Of a stretch of 64,000 nt of DNA, positions 41,404 to 51,748 are shown piece by piece. Below the pieces are notes generated by a model. The model was not told where the DNA came from and ran no database searches. It saw nothing but the letters and a program-made list of their open reading frames with translations. This DNA is from Magnetococcales bacterium DCbin4 (GTDB lineage: Bacteria; Pseudomonadota; Magnetococcia; Magnetococcales; UBA8363), in the NCBI GenBank assembly GCA_002753735.1, contig PEAN01000014.1:1-64000 (forward strand), written 5' to 3'. Positions within the stretch are counted from its first letter, which is position 1. The number at the start of each line of letters is the position of its first letter. A program made the position numbers and the translations under genes.

Positions 41404-42438
41404 TCATGCGATGAAGCCATGCCGCTCCAGGGCGAACCGGAATGCCCGTGCCAATGCCCGCCGACTCAGATTGTGCTTGATCAGAAAATCCTGTGCACCC
41501 TCATGGATTCCCCTGGACTGAAGCGCTTCATTTTCCATATCCGACATCATCAAAACAGGGGTATTGACAGCCTTGCTCTTGACTGTGCGAAAGGTCTCAA
41601 TGCCTTGACTGTCAGGCAATGAAATATCCAACAATATCCAGTCAAAAGATTGTTGCTTTAATATTTCGACGGCCTTCTTCAAACTTTCAACGTGAATGAT
41701 TGTGATTCTGTCGGGCAACAGGGGCGCCAATGGTTCGCCCTCGTACGCTTCAAACCATTCCTTGATCAACAACGCAAAAATGGGATCATCTTCAATGACC
41801 AACAAACGGTATTCACGATCAAAATCAAACTCCATATCATCAACTTCCAGGTAACCGGTAATCATGGCCTTGATCATAGCCGTTGGAGGCTTGCTGACAA
41901 AGGCCATATAGAAGTGAAGAACAAAGAAACAGATCATGGCGTAGGCCATGGAAAGATGAATACCTGCAACAATCGAAAGCAGTTCAGAAGGAATCCCAAT
42001 CTTTGGCCAATCATTATAGTAAACAAACAAAAGACCACTTAACCACAATATGGGCGAAATGATGACACTCAGGACGAGATAAGCAACACGTTGCAGTGGG
42101 TTATGTTTCAGTCTGCGGGTTTTTTTGAAAGGATGGCGCAACAGGGGGTCGAATATCCCGCTGGAGTAGTAGTGAATGACCTCGAACATCTTTTCTGTCG
42201 TCGGAATATACTGACGCCATTCCCCAGTGATCAGATGCCAGAAAATTGTGAATATCCATAGCCAAATCAGGCTGAAAGCAAGGGTTCGATGCCATTGAGC
42301 CGCATGTTCGTATTCCAACCAATCCAATAAACCTGTCACATGGAATCCGGTAACGATCAAAGCAATGATCAAAAATGCCTGAGACCAATGCCAAAACCGT
42401 TCATAGCGGGAAAAGAATCGTTCTCTGTATTGAGACAT
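41404..42438 (-). CDS. Membrane cytochrome b fused to a response-regulator receiver domain
   Basis: 344 residues. Residues 1 to about 200 form a four-helix cytochrome b561-type domain with histidines placed as haem b ligands (H17 in RFWHWSQ, H33, H50, H68, H161, H175), like the membrane quinol-oxidising subunits paired with multihaem cytochromes. Residues about 210-330 form a complete receiver domain: acidic E216-D217-D218, phosphoacceptor D271 in LLDISLPDSQG, S299 and K321. Its start overlaps the octahaem cytochrome stop (TGATG), so both are made together. The receiver may let a kinase tune electron flow, or let haem state signal outward. No histidine kinase lies in the window. Confidence 0.88.
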   Translation of the reverse strand: MSQYRERFFSRYERFWHWSQAFLIIALIVTGFHVTGLLDWLEYEHAAQWHRTLAFSLIWLWIFTIFWHLITGEWRQYIPTTEKMFEVIHYYSSGIFDPLLRHPFKKTRRLKHNPLQRVAYLVLSVIISPILWLSGLLFVYYNDWPKIGIPSELLSIVAGIHLSMAYAMICFFVLHFYMAFVSKPPTAMIKAMITGYLEVDDMEFDFDREYRLLVIEDDPIFALLIKEWFEAYEGEPLAPLLPDRITIIHVESLKKAVEILKQQSFDWILLDISLPDSQGIETFRTVKSKAVNTPVLMMSDMENEALQSRGIHEGAQDFLIKHNLSRRALARAFRFALERHGFIA

Positions 42439-44063
42439 CAGCCCCCTCCCTGCTTCATATTCCTTGATCTCATAAATATACGCATCGAGGCATGGATCAG
42501 GGTGCCCGTCAACGTTAGAATCACAAGCACACTTCCAATGGTATGCAATAACGGATTATTTTTCCTGCCAGGCATATAAATACCTTCAACACCATCCATG
42601 CGCCCGCCATTACGGTGACAATCCTTACACTTCAGTGCCTGCTCTTTAGGGGCAATCATATGTGTCAGAGGGAAACTCATGCTTGCCCTGATGAAGCCGA
42701 CCTCTCCACTGAAAGGCATTCCCGCAGCCTTCATTCCCGCAGCCACGGAACGTCGCCAATCAGAAGATGCCTCGAAGGCCTCGTTGTCATCTGGACTGCT
42801 TCTGATCAGATGATTGACGACCATGGTCTTGTTGATCGGATCGTACGGCATCACCGCAAACATACGTTTGAAAGGCCAAATTCGTGCATCGGGTTCTCTG
42901 GCGTTTCCATGGATGTGGTTGATGTTGGCAATACTGGAATTGTCAAATTTATCTTCTAGGCTGATATATTCAACCTTGCCATTGAACCAATCGTAACGTG
43001 GCGTGATCATTCCGGCCCAAATGGATGTGCCATGGGTGGCGCTATGTTTGAACGTCATTTTTTCAGTAACATGCCCGAGTTCACGAAGAATTTCTGGAAC
43101 CTCGGAATTGCCCGTCGCATTGCCCGCGGTCCGCCAATCCCAATGGACCATGGTCTCGATGCCACCCCGGGCGACGTAGGGGATATGACAGGTTTGGCAG
43201 GCGACCCGGTCGGTATGGTCATCGAGTTTGAAAGCGTTTGGATGGGGTGCGTTTCCATGGCAGGAAGCACATGAGGTATGTGTGGCATCAGATTTTCCAG
43301 GTCGATCAATTCCCAAAGAATCCTGGGCCTTGACTACATAACGCGATCCTGTGATGCGGTGACCATCGGCGTTGTGACAGGTGATGCACCCAAAATCCAG
43401 ACCGCTCGCGTTCATGTGTACGTCAAGGGTGCCGTTGGGATTGATCAGGGATGAATCCAAGTCTCCATGTTTGGCACCATCTCCCGAACCCCCGTGAAAA
43501 TGGCAAGAGCCACAATTGGCTCGACTTGGGCGCGCAACACTCTTTGCCAGAGCGACATAGTTGGGGCGTTTGATGACCTTTTCTCTAAATTTTAATTCCG
43601 ACCATCCATAGTTATATTTTTTATAATTACCCGTTTGTTCATGGCAGATCAAACAGTCCACCATGTCATCTTCAACCCGGGATACTTCTGGATCTTGCCA
43701 GCCGAAACCAATATGGCACGAAGTACATTCACGCATGTTGCTTTTCGTTGAACCACAAAACGTGTTGATCACATGTTTTTTTCCATAGATTTTTCCGGTG
43801 GGGGGATCGGAGAATTCCCAGGTCCAATGAATATTTCTCCGCACCATGGCCGATGCCTCGGTGTGACAGGTCAGGCAGGCCCGCGTGACCTCACGACCCG
43901 ATGCAAAGGGTCCTTCCAGGATTGGGAGTTTGTCATGTCGGGTTGTGGAAATGGGGTTTTCAAATCTTTGCTCTCCGCTGGCCCCGCCTGGAAAGTAAAG
44001 GGTCAAACAAGTCGTTAAGGCGAATATGAAAAAAGTGTCGTGGTAAAACCGTGACCGGACCAT
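42438..44063 (-). CDS. Octahaem tetrathionate reductase-type cytochrome c
   Basis: 541 residues. Sec signal peptide (about 1-30), eight CxxCH sites (CLTCH, CTSCH, CLICH, CGSCH, CITCH, CASCH, CQTCH, CKDCH) and a C-terminal membrane helix (LLHTIGSVLVILTLTGTLIHASM). The spacing and the lysine-rich stretch GKKHVINTFC before haem 2 match the Shewanella OTR family, whose active-site haem has a Lys ligand and which reduces tetrathionate, nitrite and hydroxylamine in vitro. It is a periplasmic enzyme anchored to the membrane, likely fed by the cytochrome b encoded next. The ATG has AGGGA 8 nt upstream. Confidence 0.88.
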   Translation of the reverse strand: MVRSRFYHDTFFIFALTTCLTLYFPGGASGEQRFENPISTTRHDKLPILEGPFASGREVTRACLTCHTEASAMVRRNIHWTWEFSDPPTGKIYGKKHVINTFCGSTKSNMRECTSCHIGFGWQDPEVSRVEDDMVDCLICHEQTGNYKKYNYGWSELKFREKVIKRPNYVALAKSVARPSRANCGSCHFHGGSGDGAKHGDLDSSLINPNGTLDVHMNASGLDFGCITCHNADGHRITGSRYVVKAQDSLGIDRPGKSDATHTSCASCHGNAPHPNAFKLDDHTDRVACQTCHIPYVARGGIETMVHWDWRTAGNATGNSEVPEILRELGHVTEKMTFKHSATHGTSIWAGMITPRYDWFNGKVEYISLEDKFDNSSIANINHIHGNAREPDARIWPFKRMFAVMPYDPINKTMVVNHLIRSSPDDNEAFEASSDWRRSVAAGMKAAGMPFSGEVGFIRASMSFPLTHMIAPKEQALKCKDCHRNGGRMDGVEGIYMPGRKNNPLLHTIGSVLVILTLTGTLIHASMRIFMRSRNMKQGGG

Positions 44064-44322: not shown

Positions 44323-45528
44323 TCACGGATTCATGGCAGTATCATAATGGGAATGAGTGGTCATACGATAAACGGCATGTTCCAAATCTTGCAATAGTCC
44401 GATGATCACTGATGAAAGAATGTTCAACTGCCTGAGCAAACCCAACCCATCTTCCCGTGATTTGTCACTTCTGATGAGTTCAACCAGTTGATAGCCAATT
44501 TCATGAAACATCTCATGTGGTTGATTGATTGCTTTAAATTCTTGTAGATCTTTATATTCCAATCCATCGCCAAAATACCATCGTCCGAGGTTGCACGTCG
44601 AATGGTCCCTGATATTTCTATGACTAAAGTTACCAAGAGCCATTCCAATAATATCAGGTTCTGTACAATAGTACAATTCAAGCAAGTCTTTGCGCCATTG
44701 CAAATGATCCATCTGGGCCTGGTAAATAAGGCCAATCGGTTTCCCCGGCCATTTTTTGCTTGAATTCACCAAATTGACAAATTCACCTCTTTCCAGAGGT
44801 TTGCTTAAAAAATATCCTTGTCCCTGATCGCAACCGCTGAGAAGAAGACGATTATAGGTTGCACTATCTTCGATCCCTTCGGCAACAACCCTGAGGCCGA
44901 TACGGTGCGCCATACGAATATTGGCTGACGAAATGTTATCCGCTTTATTATCGCGAGTGACAAAATCAACAATCGATTTGTCAAGTTTTATCAATGAAAA
45001 AGGATAAGTCACCAATACCGACAAGGAGGAAAACCCGGTTCCAAAGTCATCCAGCGCCAAGGAAATTCCAGCATTGACAAATTCTTTCATGCGGTTAATC
45101 GATACGGTACTCATCTCAGATAGGACTGTCTCGGTCAACTCAAACTGTAATCTGTGATAATCAATTTTATGCTCCAACTGCGTGCCGAAAAGAAGTAGAT
45201 TCAAGTGGTCAATTTTTAGATCATGGCCAGAAACATTGACCGCAAAATGTAATTGGTTACAAGTTTCACTATCAACAAGCATTTTACGAATATCATCACT
45301 TAATAGATGAATAACCCTCTTTGTTAGAAACGGAGTAAATCCAGTTCGTTCACAATGCGGTATGAATTCTACTGGGGGAACCATTTTGGATCCCCTTTGC
45401 CAGCGAATCAATGCCTCGGCACCAATAATTTTTCCAGTCAAAAGAGAAATCTTGGGTTGATAGTGCAAAACAAATTCATTATTATCCAAACCCTGCATGA
45501 TTTCAAAAAGTGTTGCCTCATCCTTCAT
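44323..45528 (-). CDS. EAL-domain c-di-GMP phosphodiesterase with C-terminal CZB zinc sensor
   Basis: 401 residues. EAL domain (about 5-255) with all catalytic motifs: E38-A-L, N98, ELTE, DDFGTG (160-164), K181, EGIE and Q of GCDQGQGYF. It should hydrolyse c-di-GMP. Residues about 270-350 are a CZB domain with the 3His/1Cys set: H275 in DHLQW, C312 in TCNLGRW, H338, H342. CZB domains bind zinc and sense Zn or hypochlorite in chemoreceptors and in the cyclase DgcZ. There is no membrane segment. It lies between the oxidoreductase operon and the octahaem gene, all leftward. Confidence 0.88.
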   Translation of the reverse strand: MKDEATLFEIMQGLDNNEFVLHYQPKISLLTGKIIGAEALIRWQRGSKMVPPVEFIPHCERTGFTPFLTKRVIHLLSDDIRKMLVDSETCNQLHFAVNVSGHDLKIDHLNLLLFGTQLEHKIDYHRLQFELTETVLSEMSTVSINRMKEFVNAGISLALDDFGTGFSSLSVLVTYPFSLIKLDKSIVDFVTRDNKADNISSANIRMAHRIGLRVVAEGIEDSATYNRLLLSGCDQGQGYFLSKPLERGEFVNLVNSSKKWPGKPIGLIYQAQMDHLQWRKDLLELYYCTEPDIIGMALGNFSHRNIRDHSTCNLGRWYFGDGLEYKDLQEFKAINQPHEMFHEIGYQLVELIRSDKSREDGLGLLRQLNILSSVIIGLLQDLEHAVYRMTTHSHYDTAMNP

Positions 45529-46290: not shown

Positions 46291-46863
46291 TTACTCTGGT
46301 CTGCCAAGTTTCATCAATGGGGAAAACAATTCTCGACGTGATATTTCAGTCTGTGTGGTACATGAACGCCCAGTCTTTTTCATGATACTGTCCCGAGTGG
46401 CGATTACACGCTCATGGGCTGCAAATAGTTCTTCGTTGTTACAATACCCTGACATGTTCATGACCAAAGGTTCCATGAAATGCAAGCCTAGACGCTCATC
46501 GAACTGAATATGAACCTTACGCGGACTTCCCTGTACATTCAACCGAACCAAAAGACCCAGCGCTGAAGCGGAACTGGGATTGGCTTGTTCAAGCCATTGT
46601 GCCATTTCTTCATGATCTGGAGGGGGGATGAGGATACGAACCAGTCTCCAAGGAGTCAGGAGTAAGAACATCTTCCATCCATCAACCTCGCGAAAGGCCC
46701 GTGTACATGTGGAAAGGGAGGGGTTGGCGCCAAACCCCATTCCCTCCAGATCCCGCTCCCATGGTTCAAGACGCAAACCCGAGCCTGTTTCAGAGTAAAA
46801 CTTGGCGAAAGCATTCATGAGAGGTTCAATGCTTGACAATTCAGAACCGTTGATGTGGTCCAT
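46291..46863 (-). CDS. HybE-like accessory protein (tentative)
   Basis: 190 residues. The central segment MFLLLTPWRLVRILIPPP resembles the 'LGVLVTPWFMNLVLLP' core of HybE/HupJ hydrogenase chaperones; the rest is not clearly similar. The C-terminus has SRRELFSPL, like the twin-Arg 'SRR.lf' stretch of Fe-S protein leaders but at the wrong end. The position 11 nt after the TorD gene points to a role in assembling the Mo/Fe-S enzyme. There are no hydrogenase genes nearby. Confidence 0.5.
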   Translation of the reverse strand: MDHINGSELSSIEPLMNAFAKFYSETGSGLRLEPWERDLEGMGFGANPSLSTCTRAFREVDGWKMFLLLTPWRLVRILIPPPDHEEMAQWLEQANPSSASALGLLVRLNVQGSPRKVHIQFDERLGLHFMEPLVMNMSGYCNNEELFAAHERVIATRDSIMKKTGRSCTTQTEISRRELFSPLMKLGRPE

Positions 46864-46874
46864 GGCATCCTCAT

Positions 46875-47393
46875 CTACGCAAGATTTTTTTCCAGACGAA
46901 CTGCCAATGATTTGTAAAGCTTCAGTTCGCTGCCGTCACGAAGTGCCGAAATGAATCGACCAATCCAGGGGAGAAGAAACCGCTCTTTAAAGGCAACGGC
47001 ATCGACATGTTCCACGGTTTTTGGGTTTTCCAAAAGATAAGCCAGGAACTCCAGCATCGTCCCCAGATAGTCTCCTGGCATCCCTTCTACAGGTTCCAAA
47101 CCGGCATCGCGATAAACCTGCTCCAATTGCTTCACCGTATTCCCCCCCATTTGCCCTTCATTCCATACCGACATGAATGGCGGGGCTGGTGTTCGTGGGA
47201 AACCATTGAGGAACAGGTGCGTATGTTCTCCCTGCCATTGTTCCAGGGAGATCTTTTCCAGTTCCGCAACAACTTCCTCAAGCCATGGAAGTTGTCGCAC
47301 CCAATCTTTCAGTTCTGCCAGCGCACCCCCCTGGGGATGCGCCAGCAATCCTGCAAGAACCTTCAACTCGATACTTGTGCTCAAATTTACCAT
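46875..47393 (-). CDS. TorD/DmsD-family molybdoenzyme chaperone
   Basis: 172 residues from ATG 47393, which overlaps the NrfD gene stop. The family pattern is clear: EHTHLFLNGFPRTPAPPFMSVW, then VYRDAGLEPVEGMPGDYLGTMLEFLAYLL. These cytoplasmic proteins hold the Mo-bisPGD catalytic subunit until cofactor insertion and TAT export, here that of the 923-residue subunit at 49.0-51.7 kb. Confidence 0.85.
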   Translation of the reverse strand: MVNLSTSIELKVLAGLLAHPQGGALAELKDWVRQLPWLEEVVAELEKISLEQWQGEHTHLFLNGFPRTPAPPFMSVWNEGQMGGNTVKQLEQVYRDAGLEPVEGMPGDYLGTMLEFLAYLLENPKTVEHVDAVAFKERFLLPWIGRFISALRDGSELKLYKSLAVRLEKNLA

Positions 47394-48343
47394 GGGTAGG
47401 CGTAAATCCCTGCTGCCATGAAAAAGGCCCTCAACTGAAAACCACCATTGAGCACCAGCAACGATGCCGTCACGATGGGTACCTTGCCACTCCACGTCCC
47501 GAAAACGCACTTCAGTTCCATGAGCAGCGGGACAATCAAACCAAACAAGATGAATCCGATCAACCATCCATTATCATTCCATAACATATCAGCCGATCGA
47601 TAACCACTTTCCGATCCGGAAAGGGTGAAGTTGAAGAAAGAGAAGATGATAATCAGCTCTGCGGTGATCAGGCCAAGGTCGATACGTTCGTAAAGCGCGC
47701 GAATGGTATGGTCTACCCGATGGTAGATGAAGATATACATGATGATGAGAAGCCATGCCATGGCAGTGGAAAAAGCAGACACGGTAAACAAAATGGGAAC
47801 CGCCGGGTTGTGCCACAAGGTCACCGCCGGAAAACTTTGCAACAGGAGTCCGGTGTAAACTGCGGTACCGATTCCGGTAATGATCCCGACCCAGCCAAGA
47901 AAACCGTGAATTCTCTTGGCAAAATTTGCGATTTGGATCACAATCGGGAGTTTGAGGATGGGTCCCACGATCGGCCAGTTGAGGAGCCTGGGTTTTTCCA
48001 CCATGTACGGCAAGGCATAGAGTATGGCCGTGATCTGAATCCACACGATGAACTGCGAACCCCATGCGATCCATGAATCCGGCTTATGGAATACACCGTA
48101 TGGAGAGACAATGTAAAAGACTGCCCACGGATTCAGCAGATGCAAAAACAGCATCCCTGATCCAACCACCATCATGATGACACCGGAAATCGCTCCCCAC
48201 ATGACCAACTCTTTTTCCTCACTCAGATACATATGGGTGAGAAAACTCGTCGCAACCACCGCCGCTCCCATCCCCCCGAGGAACAAGTAGACCGCAAACC
48301 ATGTCGTCCAATGTTGTTGGGTTGTATAAGTCAAAATTTCCAT
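47387..48343 (-). CDS. NrfD/PsrC-type membrane subunit
   Basis: 318 residues with about eight or nine membrane helices (WFAVYLFLGGMGAAVVATSFL, the usual NrfD start; ELIIIFSFFNFTL). It exchanges electrons with the quinone pool for the ferredoxin and molybdenum subunits, as in polysulfide, thiosulfate or tetrathionate reductases. It carries no haem. Confidence 0.92.
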   Translation of the reverse strand: MEILTYTTQQHWTTWFAVYLFLGGMGAAVVATSFLTHMYLSEEKELVMWGAISGVIMMVVGSGMLFLHLLNPWAVFYIVSPYGVFHKPDSWIAWGSQFIVWIQITAILYALPYMVEKPRLLNWPIVGPILKLPIVIQIANFAKRIHGFLGWVGIITGIGTAVYTGLLLQSFPAVTLWHNPAVPILFTVSAFSTAMAWLLIIMYIFIYHRVDHTIRALYERIDLGLITAELIIIFSFFNFTLSGSESGYRSADMLWNDNGWLIGFILFGLIVPLLMELKCVFGTWSGKVPIVTASLLVLNGGFQLRAFFMAAGIYAYPW

Positions 48344-48353
48344 GGACCCCTCC

Positions 48354-48953
48354 TCACTTCTCCGGAATGTAATAAACGTTGGGGCGGGTGCCCAGATGTG
48401 CCATCAACGGTCGAGCCTTGCCCGATCGCACCAGTGCCGTGACAGGGGAGTCTGGTTGATCCAAATCCCCGAAAATCCGAGCGTAACCAACACAGGTTTG
48501 GACGCAGGCCGGTTCACCCCCCTTTTGCAGACGATGGTAGCAAAAGGAACACTTGTCCATACTGGGCGAATTCCGGTGCAAGCGTCCGTAGTATTCTTTG
48601 CCCTTTTGGATATCTTTTGCGGTTGCCGGATACCGGGCATCATAGGGGCAGGCCATGGCGCATGCGCCGCACCCCATACACAGAGAGGGTTCAACCAGTA
48701 CGACCCCCTCCGGGGTTTTGTGGGTCGCACCGCTGGGACAAACACTCATACAGGGAGGATTGTCACAGTGGTTGCACAGTCGCGGAATGAAACGCCGTTG
48801 TACACCGGTTGTATCCCCGACTTCGCGATCATGGACGTAGGTTCGCCAATGATCCGCCCAAACGGGAGTCTGATTTTCCAAAGAACATGCGGCCATGCAG
48901 GCATTGCATCCGACACAGGTGGTCAGGTCAATGACCATTGCATAATGAGTCAT
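48354..48953 (-). CDS. Four-cluster [4Fe-4S] electron-transfer subunit (PsrB/PhsB/TtrB-like)
   Basis: 199 residues with four cysteine groups: CVGCNACMAAC, CNHCDNPPCMSVC, CMGCGACAMAC and CSFCYHRLQKGG..CVQTC, i.e. 16 Cys for four clusters. It wires the NrfD subunit to the catalytic subunit. No signal peptide; it is probably exported with the TAT-targeted partner. Confidence 0.94.
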   Translation of the reverse strand: MTHYAMVIDLTTCVGCNACMAACSLENQTPVWADHWRTYVHDREVGDTTGVQRRFIPRLCNHCDNPPCMSVCPSGATHKTPEGVVLVEPSLCMGCGACAMACPYDARYPATAKDIQKGKEYYGRLHRNSPSMDKCSFCYHRLQKGGEPACVQTCVGYARIFGDLDQPDSPVTALVRSGKARPLMAHLGTRPNVYYIPEK

Positions 48954-48976
48954 GAATTTTTCTCCTTGTCGGACAG

Positions 48977-51748
48977 TCAGATTTTATCAATCCTGATGGT
49001 GAATTCCTGGGAACGAAACCCAGCGACCATCGGTTCCACCCAGTTGGGAATGAGCTTGTTGGTTGCAGTACCGATACCACTACTCAACCGCAGTGCCTTG
49101 TTCTCTACCCCAAAAGAGGAGTGCATGAAGAGCGAATCCGGATGCAACTGCGCGGTTACATAAGCCGTTCCATTGGCTTGCTGTCCTGAACGAATGTTGG
49201 TCAGACGTATCAGGTCTCCGGTTTTGATATTTAATACCTTGGCCCGATCCGGATGGATCCAGATTCCGGTATAGATGTCTTTTTTGAAGCGATTGATGGC
49301 CGCAATGACAGGATTGTTGCTGTTGGTGGAACCGTAGGAGACCGTCGGTGTCTTGCCGTAGGTGAAATAGAATTCGTTTTCCTCCAATGCATCGACCATG
49401 CTTTTGAGTTCGCGACATTGCGCGGGAATGGTAGAAGCCAGGACGTTGAAGGAAGGCCCCCGCCCCCCCATGGATTGCAGCCACTGGAAGAGGGTACCAA
49501 AAAACTCCAGACGCCCACTGGTCGTCGGCACTGCCATGTCTCTGGGCATGGAATGGCCGTGCATCAATTCTTCGCGGTGTTCTTCGAAGAAAATTCCCGT
49601 TTCTTTCAATGTACTCATGAGCTTGTCGACGGGAACGTGGATCCGCTCGGCGGTCGATGAAAAAGAGGTATCCCGGCACGCCCTGGAAAAAGGACTGTTG
49701 ACACCCGCACTCTTGTATTTTTCAAACGCTACACGGGTTGCCTCGCCAGGGATCCCACTCAACGCTTCCAACATTTTATGGAAGTTTTCATCGGTACCGC
49801 TGATGATTTGACTCATCTTCAGCAAGATATCCGGGGTTTCCATGGTATCGTACAGCGGATCGATGGCCCTGAACCGGGTCACCAAGGCCAGATCATGGTT
49901 GACACCATTGCCGTACAGGGTTGGTTCATCCCGTTCCAGATAGGTTGGATTGGGCAGGACAACATCGGCATAAGGAACGGTATCGGAAGGCAACACATCC
50001 ACGACCACCACCAGTTCCATGTTTTCATGAGACAGGATGGCCTTCCAGTTGGAATCGGGATAGTAGTGGCGCACCGGGTTGGCCGCATTGATCAAGATCG
50101 CCCTTGCAAGATAAGGTTGACCATTCAGACTGACCTTGCCTTCCACCGCTTCTCTGAAACCGGTATCCGCCAGAGCGGGCACTGCCACCCCTTCACGCCC
50201 GGCAGCACGTTCCTGGGCCGCAAAGACAAAAGACCACGCAGGATGTTTGTGGGGAAAGGTATCGGGATTGGAAAGGGCTTTGATCAACTCGCCAACAAAC
50301 GGAACCCCGGCCATGGTTGTCATCAGCGGACCCGGCATGGCCTTGCCTTCAGCCTTGGCTTTGTGCCAGTTGGCGATCTTGTGCCGATATTCGGCGGCCA
50401 TGATCCATCCACCCTTGGTATCGATACCGCCCACCAGGGTTTGAAGCATCGCTTGGGTCCGGCGCAACATGTTGATGTTGCCATAACGGGCACCATGCCA
50501 GCCCGGATCGATGATCGGGCGACCGGCATGGGAAAATTCTTCCGCAATGCGCCGGATGACCGTCGCCGGAATTCCGGTGACATGGCTGGCGGTTTCCGGG
50601 GTTTTATCTTTGATCTCATCCATTTGTGCCTGAAGCACCGTCAGGACGGGCTTACCGGCGACCTTCAACCCCTCTGGGGCGTTTAACATGGGTTTGATCT
50701 TGCGCCCTTTGGCATCCAGCGAATTTTTGTTGCTGTAACTCGGCAGGGCGACGATCTCGCCAGTCATTTCGTCTACCGCCAATGGGTGTCCTTCTTGATC
50801 CACGGACAATTGCCACTGGCCATCATCTCCACGGTGGGTCAGAAAGGGCAGATTGGTATGGTTTCGCACATAATCAGCATTGTACCAGCCTTTTTCCAAC
50901 ATCACTTGCATCACAGCGATCAGAAAATCCAGATCGGTTCCGGGACGTATACGGATCCATTCGTCTGCTTTGGCAGCCGTTTCGGAAAGCCGTGTATCCA
51001 AGGCGACTACCCGTGCACCACGTTTGCGTCCAGTGGCGAAACGTACCATGCGCGAAGTCGAAACCGCGCCAATCGAAGCATTATTGGCGATGAAGAGAAT
51101 ATAGTTGGCATTGTCAAAATCGGGCAAAACTTCGTCATGAATGTTGAAGTTTCCCGTGACCGAATCGGTCCCGAGGTGCCCGGAAGCGACACAATGCTGC
51201 ATTGGCGAAGCGATAATGTTGGGTACGCCATTGGACAAAGCGAACGGTACCGCCCAGTTCATGTAGAACACACAGGAGGTCCATCCCCCCACCATGGTCC
51301 ATTCCCAAGGCTGAATCTTTGCCGATTTCGATTTTGACTCGATGTAATTCCATGCCTCTTCCCAGGTGGCGACGCGGAATTTTCCTTCCCCCCTTTTGCT
51401 CCCTTCCACCCGAATGAGCGGCGTTTTGATCCGATCCACATCGTAGACCTGACGTACACCCGCCTGACCTCTGGCACACATTTTGCCACGGTTGAGTGTT
51501 GAATTGGGATTGCCATCCAGCTTGGTAATCCTGCGCTCTTTGTCCTTCCCAACAACGGTTGCCTTGATGTTGCAGAGAGAGGAACAGAAATTGCAAATGC
51601 TGTATACCGTTTCTTCCTGTTCCACCTCCTCAACCTTTGCTCGTGCCTCACGCACCAGGCTGAGAGGTTTGAGCAGCCCTAATCCGGCCAGACCGCCGGT
51701 TGCCCACATGAAACCACGTCTCGTCAGTTTTGGATAATGCCATGCCAT
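48977..51748 (-). CDS. Mo-bisPGD oxidoreductase catalytic subunit, sulfur-compound type
   Basis: 923 residues. TAT signal (LTRRGFMWATGG, residues 8-19), N-terminal [4Fe-4S] cluster C52, C55, C59, C91, and a probable molybdenum-ligand Cys186 in SPMQHCVASGHLG. The overall length and the subunit set (ferredoxin, NrfD, TorD) place it with PsrA/PhsA/TtrA/ArrA-like periplasmic reductases. Substrates in this group include polysulfide, thiosulfate, tetrathionate and arsenate, and I cannot choose from sequence alone. The linked octahaem cytochrome makes a sulfur oxyanion most likely. A candidate sigma-54 promoter lies 54-70 bp upstream of the start. Confidence 0.92.
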   Translation of the reverse strand: MAWHYPKLTRRGFMWATGGLAGLGLLKPLSLVREARAKVEEVEQEETVYSICNFCSSLCNIKATVVGKDKERRITKLDGNPNSTLNRGKMCARGQAGVRQVYDVDRIKTPLIRVEGSKRGEGKFRVATWEEAWNYIESKSKSAKIQPWEWTMVGGWTSCVFYMNWAVPFALSNGVPNIIASPMQHCVASGHLGTDSVTGNFNIHDEVLPDFDNANYILFIANNASIGAVSTSRMVRFATGRKRGARVVALDTRLSETAAKADEWIRIRPGTDLDFLIAVMQVMLEKGWYNADYVRNHTNLPFLTHRGDDGQWQLSVDQEGHPLAVDEMTGEIVALPSYSNKNSLDAKGRKIKPMLNAPEGLKVAGKPVLTVLQAQMDEIKDKTPETASHVTGIPATVIRRIAEEFSHAGRPIIDPGWHGARYGNINMLRRTQAMLQTLVGGIDTKGGWIMAAEYRHKIANWHKAKAEGKAMPGPLMTTMAGVPFVGELIKALSNPDTFPHKHPAWSFVFAAQERAAGREGVAVPALADTGFREAVEGKVSLNGQPYLARAILINAANPVRHYYPDSNWKAILSHENMELVVVVDVLPSDTVPYADVVLPNPTYLERDEPTLYGNGVNHDLALVTRFRAIDPLYDTMETPDILLKMSQIISGTDENFHKMLEALSGIPGEATRVAFEKYKSAGVNSPFSRACRDTSFSSTAERIHVPVDKLMSTLKETGIFFEEHREELMHGHSMPRDMAVPTTSGRLEFFGTLFQWLQSMGGRGPSFNVLASTIPAQCRELKSMVDALEENEFYFTYGKTPTVSYGSTNSNNPVIAAINRFKKDIYTGIWIHPDRAKVLNIKTGDLIRLTNIRSGQQANGTAYVTAQLHPDSLFMHSSFGVENKALRLSSGIGTATNKLIPNWVEPMVAGFRSQEFTIRIDKI

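Follow-up and report, generated by a model that had tools for sequence, protein, structure and literature searches.

Two-component systems are mostly known to act on DNA, on second-messenger enzymes or on the flagellar motor. Among respiratory enzymes, the octahaem tetrathionate reductase (OTR) of Shewanella has nitrite, hydroxylamine and tetrathionate as substrates and interacts with STC, which is fed by CymA (PMC4484225), and an OTR paired with a cytochrome b was noted earlier in Thermosulfurimonas (PMC4911364). The 64,000-nucleotide stretch of Magnetococcales DNA analysed here (the window) encodes such a pair, with a receiver domain (REC) fused to the cytochrome. Its features, and those of related single open reading frames (ORFs), are as follows.

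41404..42438 (-), cytochrome b-REC fusion gene, 344 aa (ORF, Pfam, AlphaFold2)
41839..42438 (-), cytochrome b domain, residues 1-200, four transmembrane helices, H17/H50/H161/H175 invariant (PF01292, E 1.9e-22)
41800..41853 (-), linker, residues 196-213, from the cytochrome to receiver strand 1
41413..41826 (-), receiver domain, residues 205-342, with E216/D217/D271/S299/K321 (PF00072, E 1.2e-16)
42438..44063 (-), OTR-family octahaem cytochrome c gene (TIGR04315), eight CXXCH, KHGDLDSS, C-terminal membrane helix
L043:1839-4538(-), L045:2985-5837(+) and L046:6673-9108(-), OTR, cytochrome b and REC as single ORFs in three Magnetococcales

The initial annotation had described a four-helix cytochrome b joined to a complete receiver, and both halves were borne out. 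The 344-residue frame contains no internal stop, and Pfam placed PF01292 (Ni_hydr_CYTB) at residues 9-195 (80.3 bits; curated cut-off 30.1) and PF00072 (Response_reg) at residues 213-323 (61.3 bits; curated cut-off 30.2). An AlphaFold2 model built from a 34-row alignment (mean pLDDT 88) shows four transmembrane helices (11-35, 43-71, 114-139 and 151-180) and a complete (beta-alpha)5 receiver at 209-343, which ends with helix 5 and is followed by no further output domain; the best solved matches to the model among those listed by Foldseek were receivers. A chance match to REC was rejected on the E value of 1e-16 and the full receiver fold. The acidic pair E216/D217, the phospho-acceptor D271, S299 and K321 are all present, making the canonical set complete in the window copy. 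The interface between the domains was not readable from the AlphaFold2 output, either for this protein or for an OTR-cytochrome b-REC triple fusion modelled with moderate confidence (pLDDT 75).

Several haem-ligand histidines had been proposed for the cytochrome, and this held for four of them: among 39 aligned OTR-linked cytochromes, fused and un-fused (one row being cut before H175), H17, H50, H161 and H175 are invariant, whereas H68 is not, so that two bis-His haems are likely. The closest named model is that of PhsC and the closest solved relative HyaC (4gd3, E 0.006), and the window protein scored 81 bits against a curated 204 for PhsC (NF011582) and 48 bits against 121.5 for the Ni/Fe-hydrogenase b-type cytochrome (TIGR02125). 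With four helices, both termini lie on one side of the membrane, the same side as the K/R-rich loop between helices at residues 72-113, and the positive-inside rule together with the family topology would thus place REC in the cytoplasm. K83, R109, H112 and R117 are invariant in fused cytochromes and variable in un-fused ones; a REC docking patch at these positions was rejected because the un-fused sisters L049 and L050 already have R109, H112 and R117, with R at 83.

Immediately upstream lies the OTR gene, whose stop overlaps the start of the fusion gene by one base (TGATG at 42438). Its product scored 520 bits with TIGR04315 (curated cut-off 375), matches 1SP3 over 446 residues (E 3.2e-93) and has eight CXXCH motifs, the KHGDLDSS motif and a C-terminal hydrophobic helix. 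Whether the fusion always follows an octahaem gene had been raised at the outset, and this is so in 18 of the 19 fused loci. In the exception, G007, the fused gene (L035, contig C109) adjoins an ankyrin gene and cysS, with no OTR beside it, and a second contig (C156:36950-38314) carries an OTR without a cytochrome b match. Across Magnetococcales, OTRs and OTR-type cytochromes b number 27 each and share the same 20 genomes out of 48, and in three of these bacteria (G022, G020 and G009) OTR, cytochrome b and REC form one ORF. OTR is directly upstream in nearly every locus examined, other phyla included, and there the cytochrome b has no REC: the un-fused form directly follows OTR in Dechloromonas, Thiobacillus, Rhodoplanes, Bacteroidales and other loci, as it does in 12 further loci, and at a thirteenth, L108:2290-4584(-), the two are joined in one ORF without REC. 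The cytochrome b is OTR's membrane partner. Moreover, the haem-ligand histidines and the OTR motifs are retained; the enzyme part has thus been kept, and OTR with its cytochrome b looks like a working enzyme.

The aligned OTRs also share a conserved histidine in the C-terminal membrane helix (H..xR motif, within the last 30 residues of the window OTR, alignment columns 680-710), a possible ligand of a further haem or of a quinone. Other joinings of cytochrome b to multihaem proteins were seen in both orders, with the cytochrome N-terminal to a multihaem region at L101:1840-5013(+) and C-terminal at L103:2142-4397(-) and L102:2-3418(+).

The cytochrome b-REC fusion is real, and comprises 19 genes in 15 genomes of five Magnetococcales families, with no frameshifts. 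A search for the architecture, as the initial annotation had suggested, found it in all eight genomes of the window's genus, with two copies in G000, G001, G005 and G006, and beyond the genus in G026, G011, G022, G030, G020, G009 and G042 from four further families; the G030 copy stops at a contig end inside REC, leaving 18 complete receivers. In a tree of the cytochrome b the fused genes form one clade whose closest relatives are un-fused genes of G029 and G025; L055, a row labelled un-fused inside this clade, comes from a contig that ends before the cytochrome is complete. G018, the sole complete (single-contig) Magnetococcales genome searched, has the un-fused form only. The fusion was not found in a sample of about 350 other Pseudomonadota, in samples of 345 genomes each from the phyla of G399 (the genome of L062) and G401 (L067), in 96 genomes of the family of G405 (L057), in plasmids, or in a scan of named-genome contigs with search patterns that reach close relatives only. 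At thirteen loci where the open frame is long, no C-terminal extension exceeded 40 residues, these frames running upstream, into or overlapping OTR. Since the fused genes form one clade in Magnetococcales and the fusion was not found elsewhere, REC was probably gained once, inside this order. The impression that the layout is not a standard one also stands, as a literature search found no description of a cytochrome b-REC protein or of a receiver on a membrane electron-transfer subunit; the fusion is apparently an undescribed domain architecture of a known respiratory pair.

Purifying selection acts on REC: its dN/dS is 0.03-0.12 in three close pairs and 0.10-0.16 in two pairs that are further apart; for the cytochrome the values are 0.03-0.18. 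The linker is 17 residues long in 17 of the 19 genes; the other two, which are sisters, have 16. The phospho-acceptor D271 is kept in 18 of the 19, and half of the complete copies (9/18), the window copy among them, have the full canonical set. Thr/Ser at position 299 has been lost in 7/18, the replacements being N in G000b, G006b and G007, H in G002, G005b and G001b, and A in G005a; other changes are D271N with D217G in G006a, D217G in G002, K321R in G000b and T216 in G042. Copies that lack Thr/Ser may either work without a Thr switch or be on the way to becoming pseudoreceivers. The closest receivers among those retrieved (36-41% identity) stand at the C-terminus of cNMP-binding proteins and at the N-terminus of a protein of about 290 residues from other Magnetococcales, and these receivers share with the fused REC an extended loop before strand 2. 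Both kinds of protein are found in many Magnetococcales, the former as cNMP-binding proteins with a C-terminal receiver (L023, L027, L030 and L026) and the latter as a REC followed by a C-terminal region of about 150 residues (L024, L025, L028 and L029), which in L024, where it was scanned, has no Pfam match.

In two lineages candidate kinases lie in the operon of the fused gene. In G020, the OTR-cytochrome b-REC ORF overlaps a downstream gene for an SsuA-like periplasmic binding protein, which in turn overlaps one for a PAS-HisKA-HATPase-REC kinase; in G011, OTR and cytochrome b-REC are followed after 15 bases by a DctP + Peripla_BP protein, a kinase with two receivers and an Hpt, and a REC protein that resembles a SpoIIE-type phosphatase in its C-terminal part. 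The un-fused sisters have two-component genes nearby too, G029 with a B12-binding protein, UroD, a kinase, a single REC and a hybrid kinase downstream, and G025 with a hybrid kinase and a REC protein, which reads as REC-HD-GYP, upstream of OTR. A kinase-core search found no kinase adjoining the fused gene in the window's genus, and at un-fused loci of other bacteria it detected no same-strand kinase within 5 kb. Because kinases abound in these genomes (76-102 HATPase_c matches each), the adjacency in two lineages is suggestive only; the probability of its arising by chance, estimated from kinase density over all fused loci with enough flank, is roughly p 0.1, and its use as strong evidence was downgraded.

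Upstream of OTR the neighbourhood varies. Six loci (L031, L032, L033, L040, L041 and L048) have an ankyrin-repeat gene directly upstream, its product signal-peptide-like in those read, and where several fused loci have this gene the window has one for an EAL protein. The latter (44323-45528(-)), 260 bp upstream of OTR on the same strand, encodes EAL and CZB domains without GGDEF and resembles a c-di-GMP phosphodiesterase with a zinc-binding CZB domain. Beyond it, at 46291-51748(-), is a molybdoenzyme operon of the Psr/Phs kind with NrfD, TorD/NarJ-like and HybE-like proteins, whose large subunit is closest to PhsA, below the cut-off; ORFs upstream of OTR in L031 and L032 match this operon in length and order. 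At L039:3805-7445(+), and likewise in L038, an HAO/hydrazine-dehydrogenase-like multihaem protein and a multihaem-cytochrome b protein lie just upstream of OTR-cytochrome b-REC.

That the fusion links a phosphorelay to an electron-transfer subunit, as the initial annotation had it, is the natural reading of the architecture. We judge it a little short of an even chance that the window protein serves an OTR-type respiratory reductase as its membrane subunit on the quinol side and carries a regulatory receiver of its own that controls electron flow. The cytochrome b would accept electrons from a membrane quinol, its putative donor, and pass them across the two b haems to the octahaem cytochrome, which is anchored in the membrane on the periplasmic side, and so to the presumed substrate of OTR. 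D271 of the cytoplasmic receiver would be phosphorylated by a histidine kinase or by a hybrid kinase through its Hpt, and the resulting change, passing through the short, near-constant linker, may turn electron flow up or down, so that respiration would be adjusted post-translationally. Such phosphorelay control of quinol-to-OTR electron flow appears the most economical reading. The conserved fusion in a single clade, the partnership with OTR, purifying selection on REC, the near-constant linker, the D271 kept in 18 of 19 genes and the periplasmic binding protein and hybrid kinase in the same operon in G020 and G011 speak for it; that no kinase adjoins the gene in the window's genus speaks against it. 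The loss of Thr/Ser 299 in some copies complicates a simple phospho-switch and, with D271N in G006a, would be odd for a strictly phospho-dependent one. As to direction, which the initial annotation had left open, the evidence leans towards the receiver controlling the cytochrome, because the cytochrome b, which other phyla have in un-fused form, is OTR's ancestral enzyme partner, REC was added later, and operon kinases occur in two lineages.

Signalling in the opposite sense, with the cytochrome as sensor and REC as output, seems unlikely to us: the redox state of the b haems or quinone occupancy would alter how the receiver gains or loses phosphate or binds a kinase, so that a phosphorelay or a chemotaxis kinase would be informed of flux through OTR, for instance in energy taxis. 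A receiver without an output domain after helix 5 and the operon kinases of G011 and G020 would suit a sensor, and the short linker could couple either way, but the cytochrome and OTR retain their haem-binding motifs and resemble a working enzyme, and the un-fused homologues in other phyla point to an ancestral role that was enzymatic. Slightly less likely again is a REC that serves chiefly for docking or as a pseudoreceiver, siting the OTR complex or binding a partner with no need of phosphorylation. The loss of T/S299, D271N with D217G in G006a and K321R in G000b, in a fold still under purifying selection, would fit such a module; against it stand the canonical set of half the complete copies, the window's included, and the near-universal D271. 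The novelty of the layout, and nothing else, favours an assembly artefact, a frameshift or a chance fusion without function, a highly improbable account that is refuted by the recurrence of the 19 frameshift-free genes across five families of one order in separately deposited metagenome-assembled genomes, by purifying selection and by the single clade.

If receiver control of the cytochrome is true, signals would reach electron flow directly and fast through a receiver built into a membrane subunit of respiration; if the reverse is true, a respiratory enzyme would report its own redox load to a kinase. With this fusion, respiratory electron flow may be controlled or read directly by cell signalling, in a compact system of one or two genes that can be tested with a small phosphodonor and a spectroscopic readout of the haems. 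For OTR enzymes, it underlines the conserved cytochrome b partner and adds a possible regulatory input. In broader terms, we tentatively propose, as something rather possible than probable, a response regulator whose output is a quinol-oxidising respiratory subunit, in which a phosphorelay would gate electron transfer across the membrane directly and with no transcriptional step, and in which some species would have enzyme, conduit and receiver in one polypeptide.

Among described systems, TDIS_1882/TDIS_1883 of Thermosulfurimonas dismutans (PMC4911364) is like the window pair in that an OTR-family octahaem cytochrome adjoins a membrane cytochrome b; the un-fused loci of such pairs that were examined have no receiver, whereas three Magnetococcales have all three parts in one ORF. 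The window OTR resembles the Shewanella oneidensis octahaem tetrathionate reductase (1SP3) in the 446 matched residues, the eight haem motifs and KHGDLDSS, but differs in its C-terminal membrane helix, before which the matched Shewanella chain stops, and in having a cytochrome b as partner. With the PhsC/HyaC/FdnI-type cytochromes b (PF01292) the window domain shares four transmembrane helices and paired His ligands, yet it falls far below all three cut-offs, belongs to its own OTR-linked group and has REC. That REC is, like those of two-component response regulators, a complete receiver with canonical residues, but its companion is a membrane electron-transfer subunit and not a DNA-binding or second-messenger enzyme domain. 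Finally, G011 and G020 have, as TorT/TorS-type systems do, a periplasmic binding protein and a hybrid kinase, here with reductase genes; in TorT/TorS-type systems the response regulator binds DNA, whereas in Magnetococcales the receiver sits on a membrane subunit of the reductase itself, putatively as the functional partner of that kinase.
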